17,691 bases of DNA from an uncultured Dysgonomonas sp. Its GTDB lineage: Bacteria > Bacteroidota > Bacteroidia > Bacteroidales > Dysgonomonadaceae. Below are positions 2,085 through 17,691 of this stretch, piece by piece; within the stretch, counting starts at the first letter, position 1, and every line of letters begins with the position of its first letter. Position numbers and translations under genes: made by a program. The notes under the pieces are model-generated. The model was not told the DNA's origin. It did not search any database and was given only the letters and a program-made list of their open reading frames with translations. The stretch covers positions 1 to 17,691 of the forward strand of contig CALYRA010000002.1 in assembly GCA_945292135.1 (NCBI GenBank), in the 5' to 3' direction.

Positions 2085-2442
2085 AGATAAATCTCATTGA
2101 AGATATTTCCTTTATAAATCATTTTGAAAAAATTATTATTTATTGACTAAATAAAATTTAAAATAAATTATAGGAATATATTCGATTGAATTCGAAAAAC
2201 GAAAAAACTAATAGTATAATTCAATACGATCCAAGTATCCCAATCATCAACGCAACACAAGTTTGTGCCGACTCGAAAAGAATAAAAAAAATAATTTATT
2301 ATAATGTGAGCGTTTTTATTTTTGTATATTTGTCAAATTAAGGTTGTTAAATCTCGATAACAAAACTTAAGCAAAAAACACAAAGAGTAGAAGACTGCTC
2401 TCATACATAATATTATTAATTAGAAATAAGTTATAGTAATCT
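2085..2442. other. Intergenic region between recG and the YbjN-like/protease operon
   Basis: This very AT-rich stretch has no credible coding frame on either strand, no tRNA-like fold and no clear rho-independent terminator after recG. The only supportable element is the TATATTTG promoter box at 2325-2332. The spacer could be decayed coding DNA, as elsewhere in the window, but I could not match it to any family. Confidence 0.6.
2325..2332 (+). promoter_or_regulatory. Bacteroidota-type -7 promoter element (TATATTTG)
   Basis: The octamer fits TAnnTTTG, the -7 element of the primary sigma factor in Bacteroidota. It lies about 110 bases before the YbjN-like gene, giving a long 5' leader. No good TTTG -33 box sits at 19-21 bases upstream, so this is a candidate only. 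Confidence 0.45.
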
Positions 2443-3630: not shown

Positions 3631-3664
3631 TAATATAAAACAGGATTAAAAAGTCAATAAAATT

Positions 3665-4744
3665 ATGGCGCATAATAATATATATGATTCAGTTTTCAAA
3701 GTAAATCATGCCGGAGGATCCGGAAGCTGTTTTTATTTGAAACAATACAATATTTTTGTAACTAACTATCATGTAGTAGAAGGATTTAGTGAAGTTGGCG
3801 TTCAGGACAATGATAAAAATTCGTATTTCGGCAAGGTCGTCCTTGTAAATCCGTTGCGTGATATCGCCCTATTATCAGTAGATGGCGATTTTTCATCACT
3901 GCCCGAAATCAAATTGTCAGAAGTTGAAGAAACAGCAATTGGACAAAAGATAAACGTAGCAGGTTATCCTTACGGTATGCCTTTTTCTTTGACCGAAGGA
4001 ACAGTATCTTCGCCAAAGCAACTGATGGGTAATAACTATTATATCCAAACCGATGCGGCAGTCAATCCCGGAAACAGCGGCGGTCCGATGTTCAACGACA
4101 AACAAGAATTGATAGCAATCACGGTCAGTAAAATAAAAGATGCCGATAACATGGGTTTTGGTATTCCGATCAATGCCTTAAAAAAAATACTGAGCCAGAT
4201 TGACAATCTGGATAAATTAAAATTCAACGTACAATGCGATAGTTGCGACGCTTTTATTTCGAACGAAGAAGAATTTTGCTCATCATGTGGAAATAAGCTG
4301 CCAGAAAAGGTTTTTGACAAGCGTGGATTGACCGATTTGGCGGTTTTCTGCGAAGAAGCTATCAAAGAAATAGGTCTTAATCCAATTTTGGCTCGTCAAG
4401 GCTATGAGTATTGGAAATTTCATAAAGGAAGCACCGAAATCAGAATATTTGTTTACGATAACAACTATTTATTCTGTACCTCTCCGATAAATGTTTTGCC
4501 AAAACAAGATTTAGAACCCGTACTTAGTTATTTATTAAGCGACGCAGTTCGACCATATCAATTAGGATTAGAAGAAAATCAGATTTACATATCATATAGG
4601 GTTTATATCGGAGACATATTTACAGATTTTAGAGAAGAGATTAAGAAGAATATTGTAAACTTAGCCTTTAAAGCGGATGAGTTGGATAACTTCTTGATGG
4701 ATACATACGGTTGTGAACTTTCAGAATACTCAAAAAAAGACTAA
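3665..4744 (+). CDS. Trypsin-like serine protease (S1C/DegP-type) with zinc ribbon and C-terminal YbjN-like domain
   Basis: This 359-residue protein has three parts. Residues 1-180 form a trypsin-fold protease with an intact triad: His36 in TNYHVV, Asp66 in RDIALL and Ser138 in GNSGGP. The oxyanion-loop and terminal-strand motifs (TDAAVNPGNSGGP, GFGIPI) match the HtrA/DegP type. Residues 191-208 form a zinc ribbon, C-x2-C-x10-C-x2-C (Cys191, 194, 205, 208). Residues about 220-350 look like a YbjN / type III chaperone-like domain (EYWKF.KGSTEIRIFV, then LFCTSPINVLP, then a final helix with ADELDNFLM). There is no signal peptide and no PDZ domain. This is unusual for a DegP-type protease, which is normally exported, and points to a cytoplasmic enzyme. 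It is the second gene of an operon with the YbjN-like gene 34 bases upstream, and a strong terminator follows. Its substrate is unknown; the YbjN-like tail may bind the partner or clients. Confidence 0.87.
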   Translation: MAHNNIYDSVFKVNHAGGSGSCFYLKQYNIFVTNYHVVEGFSEVGVQDNDKNSYFGKVVLVNPLRDIALLSVDGDFSSLPEIKLSEVEETAIGQKINVAGYPYGMPFSLTEGTVSSPKQLMGNNYYIQTDAAVNPGNSGGPMFNDKQELIAITVSKIKDADNMGFGIPINALKKILSQIDNLDKLKFNVQCDSCDAFISNEEEFCSSCGNKLPEKVFDKRGLTDLAVFCEEAIKEIGLNPILARQGYEYWKFHKGSTEIRIFVYDNNYLFCTSPINVLPKQDLEPVLSYLLSDAVRPYQLGLEENQIYISYRVYIGDIFTDFREEIKKNIVNLAFKADELDNFLMDTYGCELSEYSKKD

Positions 4745-4768
4745 AATATATTTTCAGATAAATATAAG

Positions 4769-4798
4769 AAGCCGACTATCATTAAAGTCGGCTTTTTT
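4769..4798 (+). terminator. Rho-independent terminator of the YbjN-like/protease operon
   Basis: The left arm AAGCCGACT (4769-4777) pairs with AGTCGGCTT (4786-4794) over an 8-base loop and runs into a T tract to 4798. It starts 25 bases after the protease stop codon. Confidence 0.93.
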
Positions 4799-4835
4799 AT
4801 TTGCAATAAAATAACATTTTGTCAGATATTTCCAT

Positions 4836-5020
4836 TTATTCTATATCTTCATAAGGATAGATCGAAGAAACGTTGGCTAACCCGATATTCATTTGCGAAT
4901 TTAGTATATTTTTGAGTTCGGCTATTCAACTTTCAAGGCTGTTAAACTTAGCCTTCGTCACGTGTATTTCTTCATTTAAAGAATTGTCGGTTTTACCTTA
5001 AATTCAAGCTCTTTTTTCAT
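4836..5020 (-). pseudogene. Remnant of a small unidentified protein gene
   Basis: Reading the minus strand from an ATG at 5020 gives a short start (LMKKELEFKV). A frame change follows near 4997, then protein-like text (including LNEEIHVTKAKFNSLES). A TGA at 4926-4928 interrupts it, and the same frame then continues (IAELKNILNS, later SSIYPYEDIE) to TAA at 4836-4838. The Lys/Glu/Leu-rich, heptad-like composition suggests a coiled coil. One frameshift plus one nonsense codon in otherwise protein-like text is typical of a decayed gene. The family is not recognised. It lies just downstream of the blaR1 relic on the same strand and may once have been the third gene of that operon. Confidence 0.45.
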
Positions 5021-5176
5021 GAGATATCCCGCCAATTATTTTTTTGGGCAACCCTCATGCTGAAATATGGCGTAATTATAAACCTTCGATTTTTCATAAA
5101 CCATAGATTTCCATGTAATGAGTAAACAATTGCTTATCCAATTATATCCTTTAGAGTTGCGTTTTTTTTTGTAAAA

Positions 5177-5704
5177 TTAAAATTCGTCCTCTGGTTTATC
5201 AAGTCGGAAATAAACAGGAAGAGTGTAATAAACGGAAACATCCTTTCCATCCAGTTTTCCCGGTTGCCACATTGGCATGCTGCTGACCACTCTTAAAGCT
5301 TCTATGTCGCAATCAGGATGTATCCCTTTCAATACTGTAATGTGGTTAATTGCCCCGTCGTCTTCGACAACAAAACGAACATAAACTTTACCTTCGATAT
5401 TTTTTTCTAAAGCTGTCGCAGGATATTCAAGGTTTTCGCTTATAAAATCCCAAAGCGCCTTTTCTCCGCCCGGAAACATCGGCATTTTGTCTACTGATCT
5501 GTAAACTTTAGAATTACGTTGACCGGAGTTATCAATTTGTTTTTTCTGCTGATTAATAAGCGAGTCGGTAGATACGGCAATAACTTGCTTATTCATTGCA
5601 TTGATTTGCATGCAATTCAAGGTTAATAAACCGCATACAAGAGGCAATACGAGTAAATACTTTGCTGAAAACAGCGCCGAAGTTCTTTTCTTATTCATCA
5701 TCAT
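5177..5704 (-). CDS. TonB C-terminal-domain protein: surviving tail of a decayed BlaR1/M56 sensor
   Basis: The open frame encodes 175 residues: a hydrophobic helix (KYLLVLPLVCGLLTLNC), a short linker, and a TonB C-terminal fold with the typical motifs MPMFPGGEKAL, VRFVVEDDGAI and MWQPGKLDGKDVSVYYTLP. The frame stays open upstream of the ATG cluster at 5704 and reads FNVSQLKKRIMMMNKKRTS. In Bacteroidota BlaR1-like M56 proteins this segment links the membrane metallopeptidase to the TonB-like tail. The M56 core with its HExxH zinc site is gone, and the first helix of the same gene survives separately at 5740-5880. The fragment could still yield a membrane-anchored periplasmic TonB-like protein, because the hydrophobic helix can act as a signal anchor. 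Without the protease domain it cannot act as a beta-lactam sensor. Whether it is expressed is unknown. The alternative reading, a free-standing TonB-like gene, is disfavoured by the upstream homology. Confidence 0.8.
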   Translation of the reverse strand: MMMNKKRTSALFSAKYLLVLPLVCGLLTLNCMQINAMNKQVIAVSTDSLINQQKKQIDNSGQRNSKVYRSVDKMPMFPGGEKALWDFISENLEYPATALEKNIEGKVYVRFVVEDDGAINHITVLKGIHPDCDIEALRVVSSMPMWQPGKLDGKDVSVYYTLPVYFRLDKPEDEF

Positions 5705-5739
5705 AATACGTTTTTTTAATTGTGAAACATTGAAATTAT

Positions 5740-5880
5740 TTATAAAAGGTAAACAGACAGAAAATATAATCTTTTTATCATAAATAACATGTCATTTCTA
5801 AATAAAAGCATATATAACAAATAGAAGGAAATTATCAATGACGATGCTTTCAAAAGATATATTAAAATTGCGTTTTCCAT
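5740..5880 (-). pseudogene. blaR1: N-terminal fragment of blaR1-like M56 sensor gene
   Basis: An ATG at 5878-5880 opens a 46-codon frame that begins MENAILIYLLKAS, continues as a membrane helix (SLIISFYLLYMLLFRND) and stops at TAA 5740-5742. This is the classic start of Bacteroidota BlaR1/MecR1-like proteins: a first transmembrane helix followed by a charged loop. The C-terminal part of the same family resumes in another frame at about 5755 (FINNFNVSQLKKRI). The two pieces abut with no room for the roughly 220 residues of M56 metallopeptidase and other helices normally in between. This indicates an internal deletion plus a frameshift; the size is inferred from family length. The start lies 11 bases after the blaI relic, which is normal blaI-blaR1 operon spacing. 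Confidence 0.8.
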
Positions 5881-5891
5881 AATCAGTGACT

Positions 5892-6263
5892 TTAGCCGTT
5901 ATGATCTTTTTGTCGTTCTTCGATCATCTTGATAATTTCAGTTAATCCTCAAGCGATATTTTTTCTACTTTGGAAAAGATAGATACAAGTTCCTAGTATG
6001 AATTTTTAAAATAGCTTTGTACTACGCTCGACATAAAATTTTTTTTGTACTTATCTTCTTTTATTTTAGGAGAATAAACATATACGTTCCCTTACTTTTT
6101 TGCGTTAATATAATTTTTGTTCCAGATTGCGAACGACAAACGCCAGTATCGTATAGGGCGGTTTCGGTTACTCCATTTCATTCAAAATATCTTTCACTAC
6201 GAATTCTTACAATTTCCGGATAGATAGCATGACAGTTTCTTCTTCGATAGCAAGAGGCTTCAT
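5892..6263 (-). pseudogene. blaI: Decayed blaI/mecI-family transcriptional repressor gene
   Basis: BlaI is a winged-helix repressor of beta-lactam-responsive operons and is cleaved after BlaR1 signals. From ATG 6261-6263 to TAA 5892-5894 the span is 124 codons, the usual BlaI length. The text is plainly BlaI: MKPLAIEEETVMLSIRKL, then EFVVKDILNEME, PKPPYTILAFVVRNLEQK, KEDKYKKNFMSSVV, YFKNSY, and ELVSIFSKVEKISLED with IIKMIEERQKDHNG. It is broken by TAA at 6207-6209, 6168-6170 and 6105-6107. A frameshift follows near 6090. In the second frame there are TAG at 5993-5995 and TAA at 5942-5944, and a second frameshift near 5943 restores the original frame. No full-length product is possible. It is the first gene of the former blaI-blaR1 operon. 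Confidence 0.92.
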
Positions 6264-6277
6264 CAATATAGTAGTTA

Positions 6278-6292
6278 TACGATTTTTTCGTA
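6278..6292. promoter_or_regulatory. Palindrome upstream of the blaI relic, candidate BlaI operator
   Basis: TACGA and TCGTA form a perfect 5-base inverted repeat over a 5-base T (or A) spacer. It ends 15 bases upstream of the blaI start codon. BlaI dimers bind short interrupted palindromes flanked by TAC/GTA and normally repress their own operon, so position and shape fit a fossil autoregulatory operator. The assignment rests on location and symmetry only. Confidence 0.5.
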
Positions 6293-6383
6293 AATGCGCG
6301 AATGTTTTTTATGTAAAAAATATTTTGCTGATAATATAGTTTGGAAAATAAAAAATAAGATTTCGGACAATCAGAACCCAATC

Positions 6384-7085
6384 TTAACGCTGTGGCAAAA
6401 CTTTATTTTTAGGTGTCGTAGCCACAAATTCTTTTAAATAAAATGGTTCGAAATAAGCTACGTCAACAAAGTTATTTTCTTGATAAGCAAGTTCCGCTAA
6501 ATCAACCATGTTTGTTGCATGAGGATGAATATTGTCTAAGAATATAGCGTTTGTATTTTTTAGCGTCTCTTTGCACTTTTCGGCGCCGTTACCGAAAAAT
6601 ACCACTTTGTTTTGTTTTAAAATATTTGCGAAAGATGAATCATCTATGATATCGGCTGATACTTCTTTTATTTTGTTTAGACCATTATCAAAAACAGCGT
6701 CATATACTTCCATTCTGCGTGCGTCAATCATTGGACAAAGCAAACAGTCATTCTGAACCAAGTTACTTTTTACCACGCCTGCCGCCATGATTGTCAATGT
6801 CTCAATAGCTATCAGAGGAATATCCATACCAAAACAAATCCCTTTCGCTTCAGATACTCCGATACGCAACCCGGTGTATGAACCCGGACCACAACTAACC
6901 GCGACAGCATCCAATTGTATATTGTAATTGCGAATTTCCGTAATAGCGTCATTGACGAATACTCCTAAAACAGAAGCATGCGAAGGACCCTTTGTCTCTT
7001 CCCTTTGATAAATAATATTACCATTTTGAGAAAGGGCAACAGAACAAATATTTGTAGCGGTTTCGATATTTAATATACAAGCCAT
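6384..7085 (-). CDS. tsaB: tRNA threonylcarbamoyladenosine biosynthesis protein TsaB
   Basis: TsaB is the inactive ASKHA-fold partner that dimerises with TsaD for the universal t6A37 modification of ANN-decoding tRNAs. The protein begins ILNIETATNICSVALSQNG and carries the family signature GPGSYTGLRIGVSEAKG. It has the TsaB length (233 residues) and lacks the TsaD zinc motif. The frame stays open for 38 more codons to an ATG at 7199, but the family starts at MACILNIE. A TAnnTTTG promoter box (7110-7117, minus strand) lies just upstream of 7085, so the longer start would fall outside the transcript. The gene is therefore called from 7085. No key region appears missing. Its minus-strand neighbours on both sides are relics, so it is probably transcribed alone. 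Confidence 0.94.
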   Translation of the reverse strand: MACILNIETATNICSVALSQNGNIIYQREETKGPSHASVLGVFVNDAITEIRNYNIQLDAVAVSCGPGSYTGLRIGVSEAKGICFGMDIPLIAIETLTIMAAGVVKSNLVQNDCLLCPMIDARRMEVYDAVFDNGLNKIKEVSADIIDDSSFANILKQNKVVFFGNGAEKCKETLKNTNAIFLDNIHPHATNMVDLAELAYQENNFVDVAYFEPFYLKEFVATTPKNKVLPQR

Positions 7086-7109
7086 TGTTTTATTTGATAA
7101 TATAAAATG

Positions 7110-7117
7110 CAAAATTA
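7110..7117 (-). promoter_or_regulatory. Bacteroidota-type -7 element of tsaB (TAATTTTG)
   Basis: On the minus strand the octamer reads TAATTTTG and ends 24 bases before the tsaB ATG. This implies a short leader and supports the 7085 start. A -33 box is not convincing. Confidence 0.6.
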
Positions 7118-7205
7118 AATAATTTGCGTAATAATATAACTTCATTAGTCTAAAAAGAAAGCAGACATAAATTCTCATGTATGCTCTATCGGTTTTCATA
7201 AATAT

Positions 7206-7466
7206 TTATTTACGATAGAAAGCTTTAAGATACATATTCTTTATTTCCTCCATTAAAGGATACCTTGTATTTACTCCCGTACACTGATCGTCAAAAGCCT
7301 GTTCGACCATTTCGCCCAATGTATCTAAGAATTTTTTCTCATCCATTCCGTAATCCGCAATCGTCTTTTTGATACCAATTTTAGATTTAATACCTTCAAT
7401 ATCCTTAATAAAATTTTCAAAAATCTCTTTCTTATCCTTACCGGTCATAGCCATATTAGGCAACAA
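7206..7466 (-). pseudogene. adhE: 3'-end remnant of bifunctional aldehyde/alcohol dehydrogenase adhE
   Basis: AdhE converts acetyl-CoA to acetaldehyde and then ethanol, regenerating NAD+. Only the last 80 or so residues remain. They include DEKKFLDTLGEMVEQAFDDQ followed by CTGVNTRYPLMEEI and NMYLKAFY, the hallmark C-terminus of the AdhE iron-dependent alcohol dehydrogenase domain. A full AdhE is about 870 residues. The open frame begins directly after an in-frame TAA (7470-7472), and no recognisable AdhE sequence precedes it, so everything upstream, including the NAD and iron sites, has been deleted. The surviving text is well conserved and uninterrupted, which suggests a fairly recent deletion. 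A small ORF could be translated from the ATG at 7454 but would have no enzymatic capacity. Confidence 0.87.
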
Positions 7467-7684
7467 TTATTTTGCATAATAGCGAATCTAAATTGTCAAT
7501 TTGATCCGAAAACTTGGGCTTTTTCTTTTTTTATGTATGTCGTGGTATTTAGACTGTTAAAAATATAGACTTCCCAATTAACGAAATTAGAAGAATAAAA
7601 ATATTTCAGTGCTTAAATTTTTTCATATTTTTATACGTACTTCATCTTAATTCTTTTTTGTCCAAGTATGAAGTCAATTTTTTG

Positions 7685-7692
7685 TACATTTG
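7685..7692 (+). promoter_or_regulatory. Bacteroidota-type -7 element of rnr (TACATTTG)
   Basis: TACATTTG fits TAnnTTTG and lies 20 bases before the rnr ATG. A TTTG at 7657-7660 is the nearest -33-like box, but its 24-base spacing is longer than the usual 19-21. Confidence 0.55.
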
Positions 7693-7712
7693 AAATAAAT
7701 ATTAAATAAACT

Positions 7713-9863
7713 ATGAGTAAAAAGAAATCCCCCCATAAAGTTGACAGACGAAAATCCAAATCAGATATAATTAATATGACTATTAATTTTTTTAATAAAA
7801 ATACTAAAGAGGGATATAATTATAAGCAGATAGCTGCGGAGATCGGATTGAAGAATAATGTAGAAAAACAATTGTTGAATGCGATTCTACAGGATTTATT
7901 AGAAGATAATTTTGTAACCGAAATATCAAATGGCAAGTATAAGTCAAATACCAGAGGGATGATTCTGGAAGGTAAATTTGAAAGACGAAGTAACGGTAAG
8001 AATTTCTTTATACCGGACGAAGACGAATTGAAAATTTTTGTAGCCGAAAGAAATTCAGCCCATGCGATGGATGGAGATCGCGTCCGAATACAAATTCTGG
8101 CTCGTCGAAAAGGTCGCGACCCCGAAGGAGAAGTTGTAGAAATATTAGAACGCAAACAAACCCGATTTGTCGGAATACTTGAAGTTCAAAAACAATTTGC
8201 GTTTTTGCTGATGGACAGTAAAATATTAGCCAATGATATATTCATTCCGAAAGATAAGCTGAAAGGGGGCAAATCAGGAGATAAAGCTATTGTAGAAATA
8301 ATCGAATGGCCTGATCGCGCTAAAAACCCCATCGGAAAGGTGATAGATATTTTAGGCGTTGCGGGAGAAAACAACAGCGAAATGAATGCGATTCTTGCCG
8401 AATACGGATTGCCTTATAAATATCCACAAAAAGTAGAGGACGCAGCCAATAAGATACCGGAAGAAATAACGCCCGATGAAATAGCCCGTCGCGAAGATTT
8501 TCGAAATACGATAACATTTACTATCGACCCGCGTGACGCAAAAGACTTTGATGACGCATTATCAATCAAGCAGTTGAAAAATGGGAATTGGGAAGTAGGC
8601 GTACATATTGCCGACGTAACGCATTATGTACAAGAAGGCGATATCATAGACAAAGAAGGAGAAAACCGCGCAACCTCTATTTATCTTGTTGACCGTACGA
8701 TACCGATGTTGCCGGAACGATTGAGCAATGGATTATGCTCACTGCGTCCACACGAAGACAAACTATGCTATGCCGTTGTATTTGAATTGGATGAAAACGC
8801 AAATATAAAAAAACATCGTATCGGTCGAACAGTGATTCATTCAGACAGACGATTTACATACGAAGAAGCGCAAGAGATAATTGAAGGCTCGGAAGGCGAT
8901 TTCAAAGATGAGATTCTTAAATTGAATGAACTCGCAATCAAATTGCGTAATAAACGCTTCGAAAACGGAGCAATAGCATTTGATCGCCACGAAGTACGTT
9001 TCGAAATAGATGAAAAGGGCAAACCAATCAGCGTTTATTTTAAATATGCCAAAGAATCGAATAAAATGATCGAAGAATTTATGTTGCTTGCTAATAAAAC
9101 AGTGGCTGAATTTGTCGGTAAAACACCTAAAAATAAAAAAGCTAAAACATTCGTATATCGAATACATGATTTGCCAAATCAGGATAAAATGGAAAACCTA
9201 TCCGAATTTATTCGTCGATTTGGTTACAAAATAAAACCCGATGGCAGCAAAACGGCGGTATCCAAATCAATAAATCATTTATTGGATGAAGTATCCGGAA
9301 CGCCTGAGGAAAACCTGATCTCTACGATAGCTATTCGCGCAATGGCTAAAGCTGTTTATTCAACAGATAATATCGGACATTATGGATTGGCGTTTGATTA
9401 TTATACCCATTTCACGTCGCCCATTCGTCGCTATCCCGATATGATGGTACATAGATTGTTGACCCGCTATTTGGATGGAGGACGCAGCGTGAGCAAACCA
9501 TTGTATGAAGAAAAGTGCAAGCATAGTTCCGATATGGAGCAACTTGCCGCTAGCGCGGAACGCGCGTCAATAAAATATAAACAAGTAGAATTTATGTCAG
9601 ATAAATTAGGTGAAGTTTATGACGCAGTGATATCCGGAATAACGGAATGGGGACTTTATGCCGAAATTAATGAAAATAAATGTGAAGGGATGATTCCTAT
9701 TCGTGACCTTGATGATGATTTCTATGAATTTGATGAAAAAAACTATTGTTTGAGAGGACGTCGAAATAAAAAAGAATACCTTCTTGGAGATCCTATCAAA
9801 ATAAAAGTAGCCAGAGCAAATTTGGAACGTAAGCAGTTGGATTTTCAATTGGTACAATCATAA
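7713..9863 (+). CDS. rnr: Ribonuclease R (RNase II/RNB family 3'-5' exoribonuclease)
   Basis: RNase R degrades structured RNA processively from the 3' end and takes part in mRNA and rRNA quality control in the cytoplasm. The 716-residue protein has a Lys-rich N-terminus, a winged-helix region (residues about 15-75), cold-shock/OB domains (about 80-240), the RNB catalytic domain (about 260-600) and a C-terminal S1 domain (about 630-714, starting GEVYDAVISGITEWGLYAEI). The catalytic metal-binding aspartates are present in TIDPRDAKDFDDALS (Asp272, 278, 280, 281). The later RNB signature HFTSPIRRYPDMMVHR is also intact. The start ATG at 7713 sits 20 bases after a promoter box. The gene converges on exbD over a shared terminator. 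It is slightly shorter than the E. coli enzyme, as is usual in Bacteroidota. Confidence 0.96.
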   Translation: MSKKKSPHKVDRRKSKSDIINMTINFFNKNTKEGYNYKQIAAEIGLKNNVEKQLLNAILQDLLEDNFVTEISNGKYKSNTRGMILEGKFERRSNGKNFFIPDEDELKIFVAERNSAHAMDGDRVRIQILARRKGRDPEGEVVEILERKQTRFVGILEVQKQFAFLLMDSKILANDIFIPKDKLKGGKSGDKAIVEIIEWPDRAKNPIGKVIDILGVAGENNSEMNAILAEYGLPYKYPQKVEDAANKIPEEITPDEIARREDFRNTITFTIDPRDAKDFDDALSIKQLKNGNWEVGVHIADVTHYVQEGDIIDKEGENRATSIYLVDRTIPMLPERLSNGLCSLRPHEDKLCYAVVFELDENANIKKHRIGRTVIHSDRRFTYEEAQEIIEGSEGDFKDEILKLNELAIKLRNKRFENGAIAFDRHEVRFEIDEKGKPISVYFKYAKESNKMIEEFMLLANKTVAEFVGKTPKNKKAKTFVYRIHDLPNQDKMENLSEFIRRFGYKIKPDGSKTAVSKSINHLLDEVSGTPEENLISTIAIRAMAKAVYSTDNIGHYGLAFDYYTHFTSPIRRYPDMMVHRLLTRYLDGGRSVSKPLYEEKCKHSSDMEQLAASAERASIKYKQVEFMSDKLGEVYDAVISGITEWGLYAEINENKCEGMIPIRDLDDDFYEFDEKNYCLRGRRNKKEYLLGDPIKIKVARANLERKQLDFQLVQS

Positions 9864-9897
9864 TATCCGAAGAGAAAGTTAGAATTAAAGGAAAAAG

Positions 9898-9936
9898 AAA
9901 GGCTATTCCAAAAAAAACTTGGAGATAGCCTTTTCT
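9898..9936. terminator. Bidirectional terminator between rnr and exbD
   Basis: The arm AAAGGCTAT plus TCCA (9898-9910) pairs with TGGA plus ATAGCCTTT (9920-9933), with one bulged G at 9924 and a 9-base A-rich loop. A-rich sequence on the left and T-rich on the right let it work for both converging genes. Confidence 0.85.
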
Positions 9937-9948
9937 CAAACTTAGTGG

Positions 9949-10581
9949 TTATGGTAATTTCTTATTGCTCAAAGCAGTCAATTCACCTTTTGAATTTAAG
10001 TTATCAAGTAAAAAAATATCAGCTTCCTCAACTTCCAAAATAGTATATTGCCCGATATTACAAATCTGCATTTCGTCCAACGTCTCAACTAAATTGCGGT
10101 ACGAAGATGATTTCAAAGGCTTTATCATAACAATAGCACCATCTTTCGACTTTTTAATATTTTCCATCTGAAGCTTATAATCTTTTTGCGAAATTTCTTT
10201 TTTTGCGAATTGTTGTTTCAAAAGGCTAACCTTTTCTACCAAAGCGGCATTCTTATCAAGTAATACATTGCGAAGATTTCTATAACTTGTCTTTTTCAGG
10301 GAATTGAAATCTTCATAATCCGGAAAACCATGATAATAATAAACTTCATCCCTATCTAATATAAGAGTTAATGATCTGGATTCCGGTGACTTGGTAGGAC
10401 TTCCGTCAGCCGGCATCGCTATATCCATAACTTGAGAAATACTAAGAGTGGTACAGAACATAAAGAAGCAAATCAATAACATGTTCATGTCTACCATAGG
10501 TGTAAAATCTACTCTTAGCGTCGCTTTTTGAGGTTTGTTTTTCTTGAAAACATCTTTGCCGTTAGTATTTATTTCAGCCAT
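9949..10581 (-). CDS. exbD: Biopolymer transport protein ExbD/TolR (orphan)
   Basis: ExbD works with ExbB in the inner membrane, using the proton gradient to energise TonB (or TolR-type partners). The 210-residue protein has a cytoplasmic N-terminus and one membrane helix (about 28-50). The family signature RVDFTPMVDMNMLL carries the helix-border Asp31 that matches the essential ExbD aspartate. A periplasmic domain follows. Residues about 80-160 contain a charged, helical insertion (NVLLDKNAALVEKVSLLKQQ and onward). This is longer than in the 130-150-residue classical ExbD and resembles the second, longer ExbD of Bacteroidota tonB-exbB-exbD-exbD clusters. No exbB, tonB or tolQ lies within the window, so its partners must be elsewhere. 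The ATG at 10581 gives a normal MAEINTNGKD start. Confidence 0.9.
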   Translation of the reverse strand: MAEINTNGKDVFKKNKPQKATLRVDFTPMVDMNMLLICFFMFCTTLSISQVMDIAMPADGSPTKSPESRSLTLILDRDEVYYYHGFPDYEDFNSLKKTSYRNLRNVLLDKNAALVEKVSLLKQQFAKKEISQKDYKLQMENIKKSKDGAIVMIKPLKSSSYRNLVETLDEMQICNIGQYTILEVEEADIFLLDNLNSKGELTALSNKKLP

Positions 10582-10673
10582 GATTTTGATTATTAATAAG
10601 AGTTAACTTTTAATCTTTGTCTTATAGAGGAGTTTTTTATCTCGATTCCATAAATCGAATGCTCATTTTCTTT

Positions 10674-10681
10674 TATCTTTG
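10674..10681 (+). promoter_or_regulatory. Bacteroidota-type -7 element before the LTA-synthase-like gene (TATCTTTG)
   Basis: TATCTTTG fits TAnnTTTG and predicts transcription from about 10688, some 40 bases before the ATG at 10729. No good -33 box is visible. Confidence 0.55.
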
Positions 10682-10728
10682 CATTATAGGATTTTAAATG
10701 CAAACGTTTTTTAATATTGGACGATAAT

Positions 10729-12549
10729 ATGAAACAAAGGATCTCCTTATATTTTACTATCTTTTTCTTTTTCTTTTTTATCTTTTTTATCGAAAAAATC
10801 GTATTTATATTTACATGCTATCCTTCGGGAATAGGATTTTCGATACAAGATATCTTGATGGTATTATTACATGGGTTATTACAAGATCTTTCTGTAAGCG
10901 CTTATCTGACTATTATCCCCACATTATTATTATTAGGTTCTCTTTGGGTGCGATCAGACGCCATAACAAAAGTGATGAATATATATTTCGGAATTGTTGT
11001 TACGCTGATATCCATAGTCGCGGTCGCGGATGTGACGTTATATCCGAATTGGGGTTTCCATTTTGATTCCGAATTGTTGATGATGTTGCGTAAACCAAAC
11101 GAACTTTTTGCGGGAGTCTCATTAATGGGACTTGGAATCTCGCTTTTGGCTGTGATTTTCCTGTCAGTCCTACTGTTTTATATGTATCGTTGGATCATCA
11201 AACGTAAAGTATTAAAGTTAAGATTACCATTTTCTATGGGAAAATCTTTTTTTATGCTTTTGTTGCTTTTAGGTCTGCTTTATTTTCCTATCAGAGGGAA
11301 TATCTTTGCGCCGATGCCGGATATTGAACAAGCATATTTTAGTAATGAACAATTTTTAAATCATGCGGCAGTTAACCCGCACCTTAATTTTGTGTATTCT
11401 TTTTTTAATAGAAAAGATGATTTAAAATCTCAATACCAGTTTTATAGCAAAGAGGAGGCGGAAAATATATTTAACAAATTGACATACGCTTCACAAGATG
11501 ATAACCTTATAAAAGCTTTAAAAATAGAACGACCTAATATTGTCTTAATTGTTTTAGATGGTATGTCGGCTAAAGTAGCTTCAGACTCTATCGTTGCTCC
11601 CAACCTGCATAAATACGGCAAAGAAGGTTTAAAATTCAGTAACTTTTATGCGACCGGTACAGATGCCGATGGCGGTATCGTTTCTATATTGAGCGGTTAT
11701 CAAGTGCAACCGATTGCCAGTATATTAGATTATCCGGGCAAATTGCGAACTTTGTCTTCCATACCCCGCGTTTTGAAAAATGAAAGCTATAATGTGTCTT
11801 TTTATACCAATGGAAAGATTGAAAATTCAGCGCTGAAATCATATCTGACAGATGTATGTGCAGTATCTCAAATGTATGTAGAAGGGGATTCTTTAAAAAG
11901 AGACGCTGATAGAAAAAGAGAGGGTAATTATTTGATAGACAGAGTTTATTGTGATTTGACCAAGAAGATAATAAACGGTTCGCAGATGGCTATCATTTAT
12001 GATTTTATTTCAGATAAGTCCAAAGACGGGTTTGATAAAAAATTTGAAGATCCTTACTTGAATACAGTCGCTTACGCAGATAGTTGCTTAGGTAATTTTA
12101 TAGATAGTCTGAATACTTCCGAAACGTGGGATAATACCTTGATAATCTTTACTTCAAATCAAGCGTCGAATGCTTCCCGGCAAAATTTAAGAAAGAATGA
12201 AGCTCAACTATTTCATGTTCCGATGATTTGGATTGGTGGAGCATTAGACAAAAATAACATCGACAATTCAGATTATGCATCTCAAAATGATTTGGCGGCG
12301 ACATTACTTTCTCAATTGAATATTGAGAATAAAGAATTTAAATTCAGTAAAAATATTTTATCGGACAAAACCTATAAATTCGCATTTTATACGTACAAAA
12401 ATGGTTTTTCGATGTTGGCGGATACCACTTCAGTAGCCATATATGATATTGATGAAAATAGAATGTTGGAGCAAAAAGGTAATCCCGATATTGAAAAACA
12501 AGCGAAAGCGTATTTTCAAAATATGTATATTGATTTAGGAACGCGATAA
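10729..12549 (+). CDS. LTA synthase/phosphotransferase-family membrane protein with degenerate active site
   Basis: The 606-residue protein has about five N-terminal transmembrane helices (residues about 6-185) and an extracytoplasmic alkaline-phosphatase/sulfatase fold from about 268. Fold and context motifs match the LtaS-like phosphoglycerol/phosphoethanolamine transferases of Bacteroidota: RPNIVLIVLDGMSA, NFYATG, ILSGYQVQP, YADSCLGNFI, WDNTLIIF, FHVPMIWIGGAL and AFYTYKNGF. The catalytic positions do not match. The usual R/S-T-D-K/R-G nucleophile segment reads DADGG, with Ala313 where the Thr belongs. The usual metal-binding Glu of ILESFS is Asp277. The DHGH motif is replaced by NQAS (Asn477, Gln478). 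The SSHEPF histidine is absent (ISDKSKDG, about 427-434). The enzyme is probably inactive, yet the frame is full length. The frame also has a TTG at 10717; the ATG is preferred. A binding or scaffold role is inference. Confidence 0.85.
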   Translation: MKQRISLYFTIFFFFFFIFFIEKIVFIFTCYPSGIGFSIQDILMVLLHGLLQDLSVSAYLTIIPTLLLLGSLWVRSDAITKVMNIYFGIVVTLISIVAVADVTLYPNWGFHFDSELLMMLRKPNELFAGVSLMGLGISLLAVIFLSVLLFYMYRWIIKRKVLKLRLPFSMGKSFFMLLLLLGLLYFPIRGNIFAPMPDIEQAYFSNEQFLNHAAVNPHLNFVYSFFNRKDDLKSQYQFYSKEEAENIFNKLTYASQDDNLIKALKIERPNIVLIVLDGMSAKVASDSIVAPNLHKYGKEGLKFSNFYATGTDADGGIVSILSGYQVQPIASILDYPGKLRTLSSIPRVLKNESYNVSFYTNGKIENSALKSYLTDVCAVSQMYVEGDSLKRDADRKREGNYLIDRVYCDLTKKIINGSQMAIIYDFISDKSKDGFDKKFEDPYLNTVAYADSCLGNFIDSLNTSETWDNTLIIFTSNQASNASRQNLRKNEAQLFHVPMIWIGGALDKNNIDNSDYASQNDLAATLLSQLNIENKEFKFSKNILSDKTYKFAFYTYKNGFSMLADTTSVAIYDIDENRMLEQKGNPDIEKQAKAYFQNMYIDLGTR

Positions 12550-12894
12550 AGTTAATATAACAAGGGACTGTTTTAAATTTTTATCCGATTCGCATTTAAT
12601 TAGACATTAGGGGAAATAGGAGATAAGCGCAATATAATATCTGAATCCCTATCGTATTGCTTCCGGTACTTTTATTTGTATTTTGAGATTCGGTACAACC
12701 AAAAAGCGAAATTAAAAAACTGATGAAATAATATTCGCTTCGCTGCCATTTACGAAACAATAGAAAACACAGACAGATTGGTAATTCCTTAGTTCTTAAA
12801 AGCTAAAACTTTCTTTATTAGTCATAAGGTTTTTCATTTCAAAAAGAAGTCGTACTTTTGTTCGAGATTAATATTATTTTAATAAACTAATTCG
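12550..12894. other. Intergenic region before tyrS, possibly holding a lipoprotein relic on the minus strand
   Basis: No intact gene is visible. The minus strand from about 12748 to a TAA at 12600-12602 reads ISFLISLFGCTESQNTNKST, which looks like the end of a lipoprotein signal peptide with a lipobox (LFGC) followed by a polar linker. It has no start codon in frame and soon becomes hydrophobic and stops. It may be a decayed lipoprotein gene but could be chance. The tyrS promoter box lies at 12853-12860. Confidence 0.3.
12853..12860 (+). promoter_or_regulatory. Bacteroidota-type -7 element of tyrS (TACTTTTG)
   Basis: TACTTTTG fits TAnnTTTG and lies 34 bases before the tyrS ATG. T-rich sequence but no exact TTTG occurs at the -33 position. 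Confidence 0.55.
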
Positions 12895-14187
12895 ATGAAT
12901 TTTGTTGAAGAACTAAGATGGAGAGGTATGATCCATGACGTCATGCCGGGAACAGAAGAGCAGCTTTTGAAAGGATTAGCGTCAGGATATTTAGGTATTG
13001 ATCCGACAGCTGATTCACTACATATCGGTCACCTTGTAGGAGTAATGATGTTGAAGCATTTTCAGCGCGCGGGTCATCGTCCGATAGCCCTCATAGGCGG
13101 AGCGACAGGAATGATCGGTGATCCTTCGATGAAATCGCAGGAACGTAATCTGTTGGATGAAGATACCTTACGACACAATCAATCAGCCATCAAAAAACAA
13201 TTGTCGAAATTTCTCGACTTTGATTCGGATCAACCTAACGCCGCTTTATTGGTGAACAACTATGACTGGATGAAAGATTATTCCTTTTTAAACTTTATAC
13301 GTGATATAGGTAAACATATAACCGTAAATTATATTATGGCTAAAGATTCCGTAAAAAAAAGCCTTAACGGCGAATCATCAGCCGGAATGTCTTTTACGGA
13401 ATTTTCATATCAATTGTTGCAAGGATACGACTTTTTGCACTTATACGAAGAATACGGTTGTTTACTACAATTGGGAGGTTCCGACCAATGGGGAAATATA
13501 ACAACCGGAACAGAGTTGATTCGGCGAAAAGTCGGAGGAGAAGCGTATGCGCTTGTTTGTCCATTGATAACAAAAGCAGATGGCGGAAAATTTGGAAAAA
13601 CAGAATCAGGTAATGTTTGGTTGGACAAACGTTATACCTCACCATATAAGTTTTATCAATTTTGGCTCAATGTAACGGATGCTGACGCAGAAAAATATAT
13701 TAAGATATTCACAACATTGCCAAAAGAAGAAATCGAATCACTTGTCGAAGAACAGAAAGCAGCTCCACATTTACGCCCATTACAAAAGCGTTTGGCAAAA
13801 GAAATTACCATAATGGTACACTCGGAAGAAGATTATAATATGGCAGTTGATGCCTCGGAAATATTATTTGGAAGAGCAACAGCCGACGCATTAAAGAAAT
13901 TGGATGAGGAGACATTTCTTCAAGTATTTGAAGGCGTTCCGACATTTGATATATCGAGCGAAGAATTGTCGTCAGGAGTGAAAGTTTTAGATCTTTTGAC
14001 CGAAAAAGCGGCGATATTTCCTTCAAAAGGAGAAATGCGTAAAACCGTTCAGGCAGGCGGAGTTCAGCTGAACAAAGAAAAAATAACGGATTCTGAAACA
14101 ATCATAAATGCTTCTTATCTTATTGCAGATAAGTATATTATAGTTCAGCGAGGAAAGAAAAATTATTTTGTTTTGCTGGCAAAGTGA
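12895..14187 (+). CDS. tyrS: Tyrosine--tRNA ligase
   Basis: TyrS charges tRNA-Tyr with tyrosine in the cytoplasm. The 430-residue protein is a complete class I synthetase. The HIGH motif is at residues 43-46 ([13 protein letters not shown]), after the tyrosine/ATP-pocket start GIDPTADS. The tyrosine-binding segment is present ([29 protein letters not shown]). The KMSKS-equivalent is KFGKT at 232-236. A C-terminal S4-type RNA-binding domain follows from about residue 365 ([19 protein letters not shown]). Length and motif order are normal for bacterial TyrS. The ATG at 12895 matches the usual [12 protein letters not shown] start. tRNA-Gln follows 76 bases downstream but has its own strong promoter. 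Confidence 0.97.
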
Positions 14188-14206
14188 AAAAATATATTTG
14201 AAAAAT

Positions 14207-14237
14207 TTTGAGAATTAAAAAATAAAATATAATTTTG
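14207..14237 (+). promoter_or_regulatory. Complete Bacteroidota-type promoter of tRNA-Gln
   Basis: TTTG (14207-14210), a 19-base spacer and TAATTTTG (14230-14237) match the consensus TTTG-N19-TAnnTTTG. It is the best promoter in the window and lies 26 bases before the tRNA. Confidence 0.8.
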
Positions 14238-14239
14238 CA

Positions 14240-14257
14240 CTGCTTTTAACGAAGCAG
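14240..14257 (+). other. Small hairpin in the tRNA-Gln leader
   Basis: CTGCTT (14240-14245) pairs with AAGCAG (14252-14257) over a 6-base loop, ending 6 bases before the mature tRNA 5' end. Transcription should start near 14244, so the whole stem may not be transcribed. If it is, it could affect processing of the tRNA 5' end. Confidence 0.4.
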
Positions 14258-14263
14258 AGGTCT

Positions 14264-14334
14264 TGTTCCATGGTGTAATGGTAGCACTACAGTTTTTGGT
14301 ACTGTCTGTCTAGGTTCGAATCCTGGTGGAACAA
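14264..14334 (+). tRNA. tRNA-Gln (anticodon TTG)
   Basis: The 71-base gene folds as a full cloverleaf. The acceptor stem is TGTTCCA/TGGAACA with A73. The D stem is GTGT/GCAC. The anticodon stem is ACAGT/ACTGT with loop TTTTGGT (anticodon 14296-14298). The T stem is CTAGG/CCTGG with loop TTCGAAT. The weak T1-A72 pair is typical of tRNA-Gln. The 3' CCA is not encoded and must be added after transcription. Confidence 0.95.
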
Positions 14335-14340
14335 CACGAT

Positions 14341-14374
14341 AAGCCGATTCTCAAAAAGAATCGGCTTTATTTTT
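14341..14374 (+). terminator. Rho-independent terminator of tRNA-Gln
   Basis: AAGCCGATTC (14341-14350) pairs perfectly with GAATCGGCTT (14358-14367) over a 7-base loop, followed by TATTTTT. It starts 6 bases after the tRNA. Confidence 0.93.
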
Positions 14375-14453
14375 GGATTATAATTACAATTTATTTTCTG
14401 CTTGTATGGGATGATTAGCTTTCCTTGGATAACTACTCTGTTCAATAAAAAAG

Positions 14454-14834
14454 CTAAAGATTCTTACTGATAATCTTACTCGCTTCATGCTCACGTATCA
14501 GAATATTCTTTTTTTTCATTTGAGTTATACCCCATTCTCTTAATTGAATAATCAATGGAATTAAACTCTCGCTGCTATCAGTAAGTCTGTATTCTACTTT
14601 AGGTGGGACTTCATGATAAACTTTTCTAAATAATAGACCATCATTTTCGAGTTCTCGTAATGTTTGTGTCAGCATTTTGGTGGTAATGTCCGTTATACGC
14701 CTTTTCAGTTCCCCAAACCTCAATACATCATTATTGTAAATATACCATAATATCCGAGCCTTATATTTTCCGCCAATTCTTCTAAAGGCATAATCTACGG
14801 CACAAACCGGTTCCTTGATATTTTTTTCCTTCAT
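14454..14834 (-). CDS. HxlR-family winged-helix transcriptional regulator
   Basis: The 126-residue protein matches the HxlR/YodB family of small dimeric DNA-binding regulators. It has an N-terminal CAVDYAFRRIGGKYKARILW, the recognition-helix region FGELKRRITDITTKMLTQTL, the wing RELENDGLLFRKVYHEVPPK, and the YRLTDSSESLIPLI helix. Cys11 sits at the position of the redox-sensing cysteine used by YodB-type members, so it may sense thiol-reactive compounds. The gene is divergent from a secreted metallo-hydrolase with only 117 bases between the start codons. That is the usual layout for a local regulator acting on its neighbour and itself. The effector is unknown. Confidence 0.92.
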   Translation of the reverse strand: MKEKNIKEPVCAVDYAFRRIGGKYKARILWYIYNNDVLRFGELKRRITDITTKMLTQTLRELENDGLLFRKVYHEVPPKVEYRLTDSSESLIPLIIQLREWGITQMKKKNILIREHEASKIISKNL

Positions 14835-14885
14835 TTTAAATCTCTTTTGTGTTGATAATCAACTATTGGTTTATTTTAAGTAACT

Positions 14886-14908
14886 AAGGTACAAAAAGGT
14901 ATGTACTT
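14886..14908. promoter_or_regulatory. Candidate HxlR operator in the divergent intergenic region
   Basis: Two AAGGTA direct repeats begin 10 bases apart (14886 and 14896), one helical turn. Two GTAC cores (14889-14892 and 14903-14906) flank an imperfect inverted repeat, AAGGTAC facing GTACTT. The right half overlaps the -33 element of the metallo-hydrolase promoter, so a bound regulator would block it. The assignment rests on symmetry and position. Confidence 0.5.
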
Positions 14909-14937
14909 GCGAAAAGTGAATTAAATAAATAGATTTG
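14907..14937 (+). promoter_or_regulatory. Promoter of the secreted metallo-hydrolase gene
   Basis: TTG (14907-14909), a 20-base spacer and TAGATTTG (14930-14937) fit the Bacteroidota promoter. The start codon follows 14 bases later, so the leader is very short. Confidence 0.65.
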
Positions 14938-14951
14938 TAAAAAAACATAAT

Positions 14952-15953
14952 ATGAAAATAAAAAGAGCTTTAAAGTTAAGTCTAATGGCTGTAAGTATGA
15001 TGGTTATACCCGTATTAATGGGCAATAATAGTAATTTGAATTATAATGTAATGGACAAGTCAAGAGTTAAAAGTGAGAGCTTGAAAGTAAATTTAGGTAA
15101 TATCTGTTTTTATATATTTTCAGACGGTTATCTGACCATTGACAAGCCTCAATCTACTTTTGCACCAAACACACCTTCTGCGGATTTCAAGACCGAGATG
15201 CAAAACGCTCACTTATCAGAAAATACCATTGATCTGGCTATCAACGTTATGATGATAAAGACACAAGAAAATACCATTTTAATAGATGCAGGTTTGGGAA
15301 GACATTTTGGGGATAAACAAGGTTGGTTAGTGAATAATATTGAAAATGCCGGAATCTCCAGAGATTCCATTACGGATATTTTGATTACCCATGCGCACAG
15401 AGACCATATTGGAGGGTTGATTTCGAATGAAGAAGCAATGATCTTTCCCAATGCAAAATATCATATAGCTAAAGAGGAGTATGATTTCTGGATGTCAGAA
15501 AATCCAGATTTTTCTAAAAGCAAATTAAGTATTGAACAAAGGAAAGTGACTATAGAATTTACAAAGAAAATATTAAATAGGATCAAGGAAAATGTTGTAC
15601 TGTTCCATCCCGGAGACACTTTGTTCTCTGTTATTCAAACAGAACTCGCAGCCGGTCATACTCCCGGACATACCATTTTTACTATTACATCCGAAGGAAA
15701 ATCGGTTAAAAATATTGTAGATATTTTTCATGCCCCGTTGTTAATTTCAAATCCTGAATGGGGTATAGTTTTCGATATCGATTTTGAACAAGGTATTCGA
15801 GACAGAAAACAAATATTGGAAGATTGTTACGTAAATAAACAATTGGTTATGTCTTCGCATCTACCTTGGCCGGGATTGGGTTATATTGACAAAAGGGACA
15901 AATACTATTGGAATCCGATATATTATTATACGCCTTTGGAAATAAATTTGTAA
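14952..15953 (+). CDS. Exported metallo-beta-lactamase-fold hydrolase
   Basis: The 333-residue protein starts with an export signal (basic KIKR, then hydrophobic LSLMAVSMMVIPVLMG) and is probably periplasmic. The MBL fold is complete. The HxHxDH zinc motif is THAHRDHIGG (His147, His149, Asp151, His152), the third-metal histidine is in AAGHTPGHT (His235), the bridging Asp is in VDIFH (Asp257), and the last His is in SSHLPWPG (His303). The segment FPNAKYHIAKEEYDFW and the overall spacing resemble the methyl-parathion-hydrolase/lactonase-like branch rather than true beta-lactamases. The substrate cannot be told from sequence. It is divergent from an HxlR regulator, which suggests induction by a small molecule that the enzyme may clear. 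Confidence 0.9.
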   Translation: MKIKRALKLSLMAVSMMVIPVLMGNNSNLNYNVMDKSRVKSESLKVNLGNICFYIFSDGYLTIDKPQSTFAPNTPSADFKTEMQNAHLSENTIDLAINVMMIKTQENTILIDAGLGRHFGDKQGWLVNNIENAGISRDSITDILITHAHRDHIGGLISNEEAMIFPNAKYHIAKEEYDFWMSENPDFSKSKLSIEQRKVTIEFTKKILNRIKENVVLFHPGDTLFSVIQTELAAGHTPGHTIFTITSEGKSVKNIVDIFHAPLLISNPEWGIVFDIDFEQGIRDRKQILEDCYVNKQLVMSSHLPWPGLGYIDKRDKYYWNPIYYYTPLEINL

Positions 15954-15984
15954 AATAAAGGTTTCATTCATGTCATAATAAAGA

Positions 15985-16564
15985 CATTGAAAACTTTGGG
16001 GTGGGCTACCTGATCGGAACCATCTATGGATTCAATATATTGTTTTACAACCGAAAATATATTGCTTGATGGTATCGAAAGTCCAATAGATAGATCATAG
16101 GACTAAGACAGACAAAAATCATGATATACGTGATAAAAAAATCATAACATGAAGAATAATCTTCTTTGTACCTCAAAAAAGGATTTTTTTGGCTGTCTCA
16201 AACATATGAAGGTCATGTTCGTGACAAAAAAATGTAGATGACAGCCAATAAGATTACCAACAGTATCAGTTTATGCAGTAAACTCGCTTTTTACGTCACA
16301 AATCTAAAAATGAAACCGTTAAGATGCCAACAAAGAAACCTAAAGGACAAAGACTTGTTTAATATTTAAAAGGAAGAAAATAGAAAAATATCAGGCTTTC
16401 GTATAATTGTGGAGCATTCTATTGAAGGAATCAAAAAATGCCGTATTGTCAAAGAACGTTTCAGATGTCGCAAGTTCGGCTTTGACGATTATGTCATGCT
16501 TATTGCTTTTGGTCTTCATAATTTCAGAATATCAATGAAAACGAGTAATATAGTACTTTGTTAA
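15985..16564 (+). pseudogene. Degraded IS5-family transposase
   Basis: Pieces of one DDE transposase are readable in order but in different frames: YLIGTIYGFN, LLDGIESPIDRS, FWLSQT with EGHVRDKKM, TKKPKGQRL, and KEENRKISGFRIIVEHSIEG followed by KKCRIVKERFRCRKFGFDDY and AFGLHNFRI, ending at TAA 16562-16564. All three catalytic acidic positions can still be placed: Asp at 16068-16070, Asp at 16222-16224 and Glu at 16412-16414. At least three frame changes and several stops separate the pieces, and the 5' third is missing. No terminal inverted repeats or target duplication could be found. The last roughly 55 codons are uninterrupted. It is a dead element. Confidence 0.85.
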
Positions 16565-16582
16565 AGATAATATCTAATAAAA

Positions 16583-17691
16583 TTATTTTTCAATCCTTAT
16601 ACGAGCATCAACCGCAATAACTGTTTTCCCGTTGGCTATTAAGGGATTAATATCTATTTCCTTTATTTCGGTCGCAAATCTCAGCATAACGGATAGCCTG
16701 ACAATTGTTTCAATGAATAAATCTTCATTCAGACCTTTTTTTCCGCGCGTACCTTTAATTATTTTATATGCTCTGAGGGATTGAACCATAGACCGAGCTT
16801 CTTCAAAACTTAAAGGAGCAAGTCCGGAAGCGATATCTTTTAATACTTCTACAAAAATTCCCCCCAATCCGCATAATACGATATGACCATATTTCGGCTC
16901 GTATTTAGCGCCGATGAATAATTCCTGCCCCGAAAGCATTGGTTGCACAGTAACCGCGTCTACGTTTTTTATATTCATTATTCTGTCAAACTCTAAAGAA
17001 AGATGTTCCGAAGATCGTATATTTAAGGCTACTCCCCCTATATCAGACTTATGAACAGATCCAACGCATTTGGCGACAACAGGATAACCCATTTTGTCGG
17101 CAAAGCTGATAATCTCATTCTTATCGTTAGAGACAAGCTCTTCCACGATTGAAATGCCCGCAGCGTCAAACAACTGTTTAATCTTACCGCTTTCGATATA
17201 ACCATTCTCACACGTATCAATAATAGACCTCACCTTCGGAATATCTACATCTATGTCCTCAATCTTCCCCACTGACGGAGGAGTCTGACCAATGACTTTT
17301 GATAGTGCGTCGGCAAGCGCGTATTCATCTAAAAAATTTACATGTCCTTTATTTATAAAATATTCAGTCTCTTCAGCAGCCATCACTACCGAAGGCAAAA
17401 TAGGGTAGATTGGCAGTCTGCAACTTCTTATTTTTTTATCCAATATTTCGTAAGCTTCTTTTACGTTACTAACGCCCGGATTGCCATATATAACAGCTAT
17501 TCCGTCAATTTCCTTAAAATATTTTTCGCAGAAGTCAATAGCGTGCGCCATATGTTCACCGGTGCCGGTACCTATTATGTCGATAGGATTGGATACGGCT
17601 TCCCCCGGAAGAATAGTCTTTTTTAATTACTTAGCACGTTCGGGTTCCATTTCAGGAACGTTGATATTACCCTTAGCCAATGCGTCTGTCA
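16583..17691 (-). pseudogene. ADP-forming acetate/acyl-CoA ligase, interrupted by an in-frame stop (partial at window edge)
   Basis: The enzyme family converts acyl-CoA, ADP and phosphate to acid, CoA and ATP, a last ATP-yielding step of fermentation. The minus strand enters the window in frame (TDALAKGNINVPEMEPERAK), hits TAA at 17627-17629, and continues in the same frame as LKKTILPGEAVSNPIDIIGT. It then runs uninterrupted from ATG 17551 for 322 residues. These hold the CoA-ligase-like domain (GIAVIYGNPG, LPIYPILPSVV) and an ATP-grasp domain with VVAKCVGSVHKSDIGGVALN and the ending IKEIDINPLIANGKTVIAVD. Homology on both sides of the stop shows a single long ancestral gene (family about 690 residues). 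The break is inside a domain, so it is not a natural alpha/beta subunit split. The downstream part is otherwise intact, so the nonsense change looks recent. Translation from 17551 could give an N-truncated protein lacking the CoA-binding domain. Confidence 0.85.

Follow-up and report, generated by a model that had tools for sequence, protein, structure and literature searches.

Within a 17,691-nucleotide stretch of DNA from an uncultured Dysgonomonas sp. (GenBank assembly GCA_945292135.1, contig CALYRA010000002.1, positions 1 to 17,691; hereafter the window), we find a gene of the lipoteichoic acid (LTA) synthase/MdoB-like type (PF00884) whose product is a predicted pseudoenzyme. The gene lies at 10729 to 12549 on the forward strand and runs from ATG to stop over 606 codons without interruption; its start Met stands at the same position as in same-genus orthologues. 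Because the frame is intact, neither recoding nor a frameshift is needed to read it. The Pfam Sulfatase profile PF00884 matches residues 269 to 532 over its full length (1 to 301 of 301, E = 2.5e-21), and a structure model has five long helices in residues 1 to 183. The alkaline phosphatase (AlkP)/sulfatase fold on a five-helix anchor is therefore present, and the initial annotation of this DNA, which had described an open 606-codon frame with fold motifs and anchor well kept, holds on both points. From the model helices and pair identities we delimit a membrane domain (residues 1 to 190; 10729 to 11298, +), and from Pfam, pair identities, and a structure alignment a sulfatase-fold ectodomain with replaced catalytic residues (residues 268 to 540; 11530 to 12348, +). 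The divergent neighbor is an ExbD/TolR gene (9949 to 10581, −), and the downstream neighbor is TyrS (12895 to 14187, +), used here as a clock gene.

None of the five active-site residues checked is kept. Alignment to 93 homologues gives the replacements Glu277Asp, Thr313Ala, His429Asp, Asp477Asn, and His478Gln. In the window, all on the forward strand, these fall at 11557 to 11559 (Asp277, the metal-ligand Glu of active relatives, LtaS Glu255), 11665 to 11667 (Ala313, their Thr/Ser nucleophile), 12013 to 12015 (Asp429, their SSHEPF His, LtaS His416), and 12157 to 12162 (Asn477-Gln478, their metal-binding Asp-His). Of the 94 aligned proteins (query plus 93 matches), 87 keep all five (E277, T/S/C313, H429, D477, and H478), and each of these columns is invariant and canonical in 23 full-length active relatives. 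The window protein (P0001) and four further proteins, P0002 to P0005, keep none; the remaining two are a short protein of 432 amino acids and one with four of the five. Ala stands at 313 in all five of these proteins, where active LTA synthases have Thr or Ser. Likewise, Asp277 together with N/S at 477 and Q/E/N at 478 replaces the Glu and Asp-His metal ligands. The passages cited here from PMC4973235 give T300, H476, and E255 of LtaS as binding Mn, and H416, W354, F353, D349, H347, and R356 as binding glycerol phosphate. Much of that substrate pocket is also gone: over the segment of LtaS H347 to R356 and H416 (where LtaS numbering pairs off by one residue in places), G361, D363, F366, R370, and H429 are replaced in all four distinct members of the group. 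The first four of these, which 95% or more of the 23 active rows retain, are both lost and variable there. In the profile alignment, Thr300 of Staphylococcus aureus LtaS (2w5q) is one column off, opposite 312, with its Asp opposite 314, and the sulfatase-type Cys of the family alignment stands at column 313. Since the window protein has Asp at 312 and Ala at 313, the nucleophile is lost under either alignment. The earlier claim that all recognisable catalytic residues are replaced is thus borne out by the homologues and by LtaS, and the protein probably no longer does any chemistry.

Identity to the window protein is 99, 75, 69, and 69% for P0002 (which stands for a cluster of 18 member sequences) to P0005, respectively, and P0001 to P0005 are monophyletic (support 100/100) within the Dysgonomonas orthologues. 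A clade of homologues sharing the same substitutions was the check proposed for a conserved pseudoenzyme, and this clade, full-length proteins with a shared catalytic loss, is what was found; judged by these sequences, the window gene encodes a predicted conserved pseudoenzyme. Searching with a profile of the clade added no member among the best 7996 candidates by shared words that were scored. There was likewise no member beyond the own genome in the genus search (25 genomes) or the family search (101 genomes), and a genome-contig scan gave one 20% match among the matches listed. We compared 24 other genomes of the genus with that of the window. In 21 of 21 with a readable site the gene is canonical (19 full-length; G009 and G014 in fragments). 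G012 (51% complete) has an N-terminal fragment of the gene alone, and G008 (98% complete) and G023 (81%) give weak matches only, to other family members (best 4.6e-27 at 25% and 4.0e-13 at 20%, respectively).

Identity to the full-length orthologues of the genus is 40 to 45%. ExbD adjoins the orthologue in 16 of these 19 loci, so the window gene is the original gene gone dead. TyrS lies within the 1.5-kb flank in 2 of 19 (L007 and L018), and the RNaseR-ExbD-LTA-TyrS order of the window recurs in G010, among five larger regions examined. TyrS P0107 (91%) and P0003 are each recorded on one contig of 93187 bases; this equal length suggests that the gene neighborhood is also kept in this clade mate. 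We rejected a paralogue in place of an orthologue on the basis of synteny and because the own genome (71.6% complete) holds no other copy above 23% identity.

Constraint has moved from the catalytic domain to the membrane and juxtamembrane parts. Selection was gauged by protein-level surrogates (identities, BLOSUM62 scores, and tree distances) in place of the ratio of nonsynonymous to synonymous rates, with a pseudoenzyme set that excludes P0002 as nearly identical (99%) to the window protein and an active set of 23, which leaves out fragments L022, L023, L027, and L029 and distant rows L035 to L040. Pairs among P0001, P0003, and P0004 are 0.79 to 0.86 identical in the membrane domain and 0.60 to 0.69 in the catalytic domain. 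The membrane domain is the more conserved in three of three such pairs (membrane minus catalytic identity +0.14, +0.19, and +0.21), versus none of 253 active pairs (−0.23 to −0.01). Among columns fixed at 95% or more in active proteins and changed in the clade, 19 are newly fixed and 5 variable in residues 1 to 267, compared with 12 and 29 in residues 268 to 540 (p 1e-4, a Fisher/hypergeometric value that, like the next, overstates independence because the rows are related). The column comparison also picks out residues 116 to 119 in the helix 3-4 loop (11074 to 11085, +), four consecutive positions that are constant but different, and a juxtamembrane segment, residues 185 to 200 (11281 to 11328, +), with seven such positions (p 4e-6, for a region picked after data inspection). 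Both would face the periplasm if the N-terminus is inside. The most drifted part is residues 361 to 450, at 0.58 to 0.59 versus 0.59 to 0.84 in active proteins (30-residue blocks).

By tree distance, the change was concentrated on one branch. In the gene tree, built without the four fragments, the clade stem measures 1.22 changes per site versus a median end branch of 0.19. A three-gene species tree places the window genome (G000) and G008 as sisters (100/100) on branches of 0.11 to 0.21. The ratio of window-to-active over active-to-active tree distance is 3.90 for the LTA gene, compared with 1.56 for RNaseR, 1.59 for RecG, 2.08 for ExbD, and 2.36 for TyrS; the lineage is faster overall, and the LTA gene most. 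Rates relative to TyrS were taken from 17 genomes of the genus with both genes full-length. The one clockable pseudoenzyme pair has an LTA/TyrS ratio of 2.99 by identity (active mean 3.9, range 2.47 to 5.81, 134 pairs) and 2.69 by tree distance (active median 3.73, range 1.60 to 6.84). After its long stem the gene is, on this one pair, no faster than its active orthologues relative to TyrS.

Simulated neutral drift does not keep the frame open. Starting from the window gene, we ran a simple mutation model without indels down to 75.2% and 68.4% identity, 300 runs each, and 0 of 300 frames stayed open at either divergence (mean stops 10.4 and 13.7, minimum 3 and 7). Simulated replacements had mean BLOSUM62 scores of −0.40 and −0.43 (maxima +0.11 and −0.09), versus +0.25 to +0.44 in the three clade pairs. 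The initial annotation had left a choice between a true pseudoenzyme and a very early pseudogene. The second is disfavored because every simulated run gave stops (at least 3), and we rejected it as the principal explanation on this ground together with the shared-loss clade; the first is favored on the same evidence.

To our knowledge, YejM is the well-studied pseudoenzyme of the LtaS/EptA fold, and LapB is absent from Bacteroidota. YejM/LapC/PbgA, an enterobacterial pseudo-hydrolase and lipopolysaccharide sensor restraining LapB-FtsH degradation of LpxC, is the closest known system. Both it and the window protein have a dead AlkP/sulfatase-fold ectodomain on five helices, and full-length PbgA pairs with residues 1 to 606 of the window protein in VIA-align. 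Missing catalytic residues in YejM/PbgA are remarked on in PMC7773988. The PbgA counterparts of the LtaS site are, in the cited part of PMC4973235, T302, G450, R451, and D268, so that PbgA and the window protein both have Asp where LtaS has Glu255. For viability, PbgA requires its membrane domain and can do without its periplasmic one (PMC6921655), and LpxC stays at normal levels when YejM is truncated by a stop at 192 (PMC7240159); the part most needed there is the part most conserved in our clade. Unlike YejM/LapC/PbgA, the clade is nested among Dysgonomonas LTA-synthase orthologues, and its origin is therefore independent. The LapC model NCBIfam NF038282 has a cut-off of 825 bits, against 25.3 bits for P0001 and 46.6 for P0003, and the string YPMTARRF, given as the lipid A motif of YejM/LapC/PbgA in the cited passage of PMC13125744, is absent from the P0001 sequence. 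The window protein is not a YejM by membership, and by analogy it may work like one. It shares fold, length, and anchor with LTA synthase/MdoB-like phosphoglycerol transferases (S. aureus LtaS, Listeria LtaS/LtaP, and VP1736) and with active Dysgonomonas orthologues, the latter also in synteny, and differs from both at the five catalytic or metal-site positions and across much of the substrate pocket. In the limited literature searched, we found no paper joining pseudoenzyme and LtaS, none on LTA synthase in Dysgonomonas or with phosphoglycerol in Bacteroidetes, and none on pseudoenzyme sulfatases of the alkaline phosphatase superfamily.

The own genome has five PF00884 places in all. An intact paralogue (P0216, contig C154) keeps the ES, RS-RG, SNHEPF, and ADH motifs; its close orthologues in the genus are in G008 (75%) and G015 (66%; listed as 82% complete and 6% contaminated) only, others being at most 36% identical. 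A further LTA-synthase paralogue (L139, G000:C85, about 3331 to 5172) has one in-frame TAG in the match and is possibly a relic. In sister G008 (locus L136, G008:C11), no LTA gene adjoins the presumed ExbD orthologue, the best of three matches; the gene there we take to be DNA-alkylation-repair-like. Four LTA-family queries gave no match in the 16 kb around this ExbD.

We consider it probable that the gene encodes a conserved pseudoenzyme that acts through its membrane and juxtamembrane parts, like YejM/LapC/PbgA in working and of independent origin. Since relatives carry the same changes, the enzyme was apparently recruited to a non-enzymatic job at the cell membrane. The starting point would be an ancestral, syntenic phosphoglycerol-transferase/LTA-synthase-type gene in one uncultured Dysgonomonas lineage. 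On a single stem branch this gene would have lost its nucleophile and metal ligands along with residues of the substrate pocket, and constraint would then have kept it, dead. A lipid or a membrane partner might be bound by the five helices together with the adjoining juxtamembrane segment, with the ectodomain as scaffold or sensor in the YejM/LapC/PbgA manner, and the enzymatic task may have passed to P0216, which the sister species also has. A structural, binding, or regulatory envelope role had been proposed; by the shift of constraint toward the membrane domain, this can be narrowed to a putative membrane-side binding or regulatory role. Such a case is of interest because a young, phylogenetically bracketed second example would show how regulators arise from lipid-using enzymes, by a route of possible paralogue displacement, a burst of change, and a constraint shift to the membrane domain, with active relatives at hand for comparison. 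It also calls for caution, since a sulfatase or LTA synthase label on a PF00884 membrane protein may hide a protein without catalytic activity.

Several observations weigh against this reading, besides the related rows behind the p values. Sister G008 lives without the gene, and at 71.6% completeness of the own genome a second, active copy could have been missed. The whole lineage is somewhat faster, and its ExbD is also divergent (54% mean identity to 19 genus copies that are 68% alike). Measured by plain identity, window-to-active pairs have LTA/TyrS ratios (mean 4.2, 34 pairs) no different from the active range; only tree distances, which correct for saturation, reveal the stem burst. Two of the three clade pairs score +0.25 and +0.30 in mean BLOSUM62, versus +0.47 in 170 active pairs of comparable identity, and the positive-scoring share of P0001/P0003 (0.40) falls among the neutral runs (maximum 0.46). 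Constraint on the clade may be slightly weaker than on the active enzyme. Asp425 and Asp429 are new acids, invariant within the clade, which makes a changed active site possible.

A bolder version, which we put forward tentatively, is that a YejM-like sensor arose independently for a second time, recently and within one genus: the enzyme displaced by its paralogue, the active site lost, and the periplasm-facing side of the membrane domain (116 to 119 and 185 to 200) re-specified and fixed to read an envelope lipid. One course compatible with the three genomes concerned is that P0216 displaced the enzyme, after which one sister lost the old gene and the other recruited it. If true, active enzyme, gene loss, and pseudoenzyme could be compared among sister species. 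Less likely, the protein is a non-catalytic partner or regulator of P0216, a dead subunit pairing with the active enzyme or limiting it. The intact motifs of P0216, its restriction among close orthologues to G008 and G015, and the sister relation of G000 and G008 fit such a role. However, G008 has P0216 and lacks the dead partner, G015 has the P0216 orthologue together with a canonical orthologue of the window gene, and P0216 and the window gene share 23% identity and are found on separate contigs.

It is improbable that the protein is instead still an enzyme, with a site rebuilt around another nucleophile and Asp277, Asp314, Asp425, and Asp429. These four acids are invariant in the clade and the fold is intact, but no Ser/Thr position is conserved clade-wide at 309 to 313, both metal-binding Asp-His positions and the pocket residues 361, 363, 366, and 370 are lost and variable, and conservation is lowest in the catalytic domain. 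Slow decay under relaxed selection with no stop acquired yet, to which the long stem, the sister without the gene, the relics close by, the poor conservation of 361 to 450, and the slightly less conservative clade changes would be congenial, is the least credible explanation, given four further full-length database proteins down to 69% identity, the failure of simulated drift to leave a frame open or reach the clade's BLOSUM62 means, and a membrane domain conserved more strongly than that of active enzymes.

A promoter had also been ascribed to the gene, and here the evidence is weak. Upstream lies TATCTTTG (10674 to 10681, +), which we take to be a Bacteroidales-type -7-like motif. Its 8-mer pattern occurs 29 times in the window against 23.2 expected, with 24 of 200 shuffles as high, and sigma-70-like matches are at chance (10 found, 11.0 expected). 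Because neither scan exceeds shuffles, we make no promoter claim. The earlier mention of neighboring relics holds: an 86-amino acid fragment beside TsaB (7206 to 7466, −) covers positions 120 to 193 of 194 only of the iron-containing alcohol dehydrogenase C-terminal domain PF25137, and a 64-codon transposase remnant (16370 to 16561, +) matches the end of DDE_Tnp_4 at 25.0 bits (cut-off 24.8). Elsewhere (2443 to 4744, +), a 395-amino acid protein without a Pfam match precedes a Trypsin_2 protease that also matches a zinc ribbon weakly and is similar to the protease component of PADLOC RT-Protease XI (E 3e-22). Pfam found no reverse transcriptase domain in the ten window proteins scanned, and PADLOC gave no match for the pseudoenzyme gene. 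Rfam identified one tRNA in the window.
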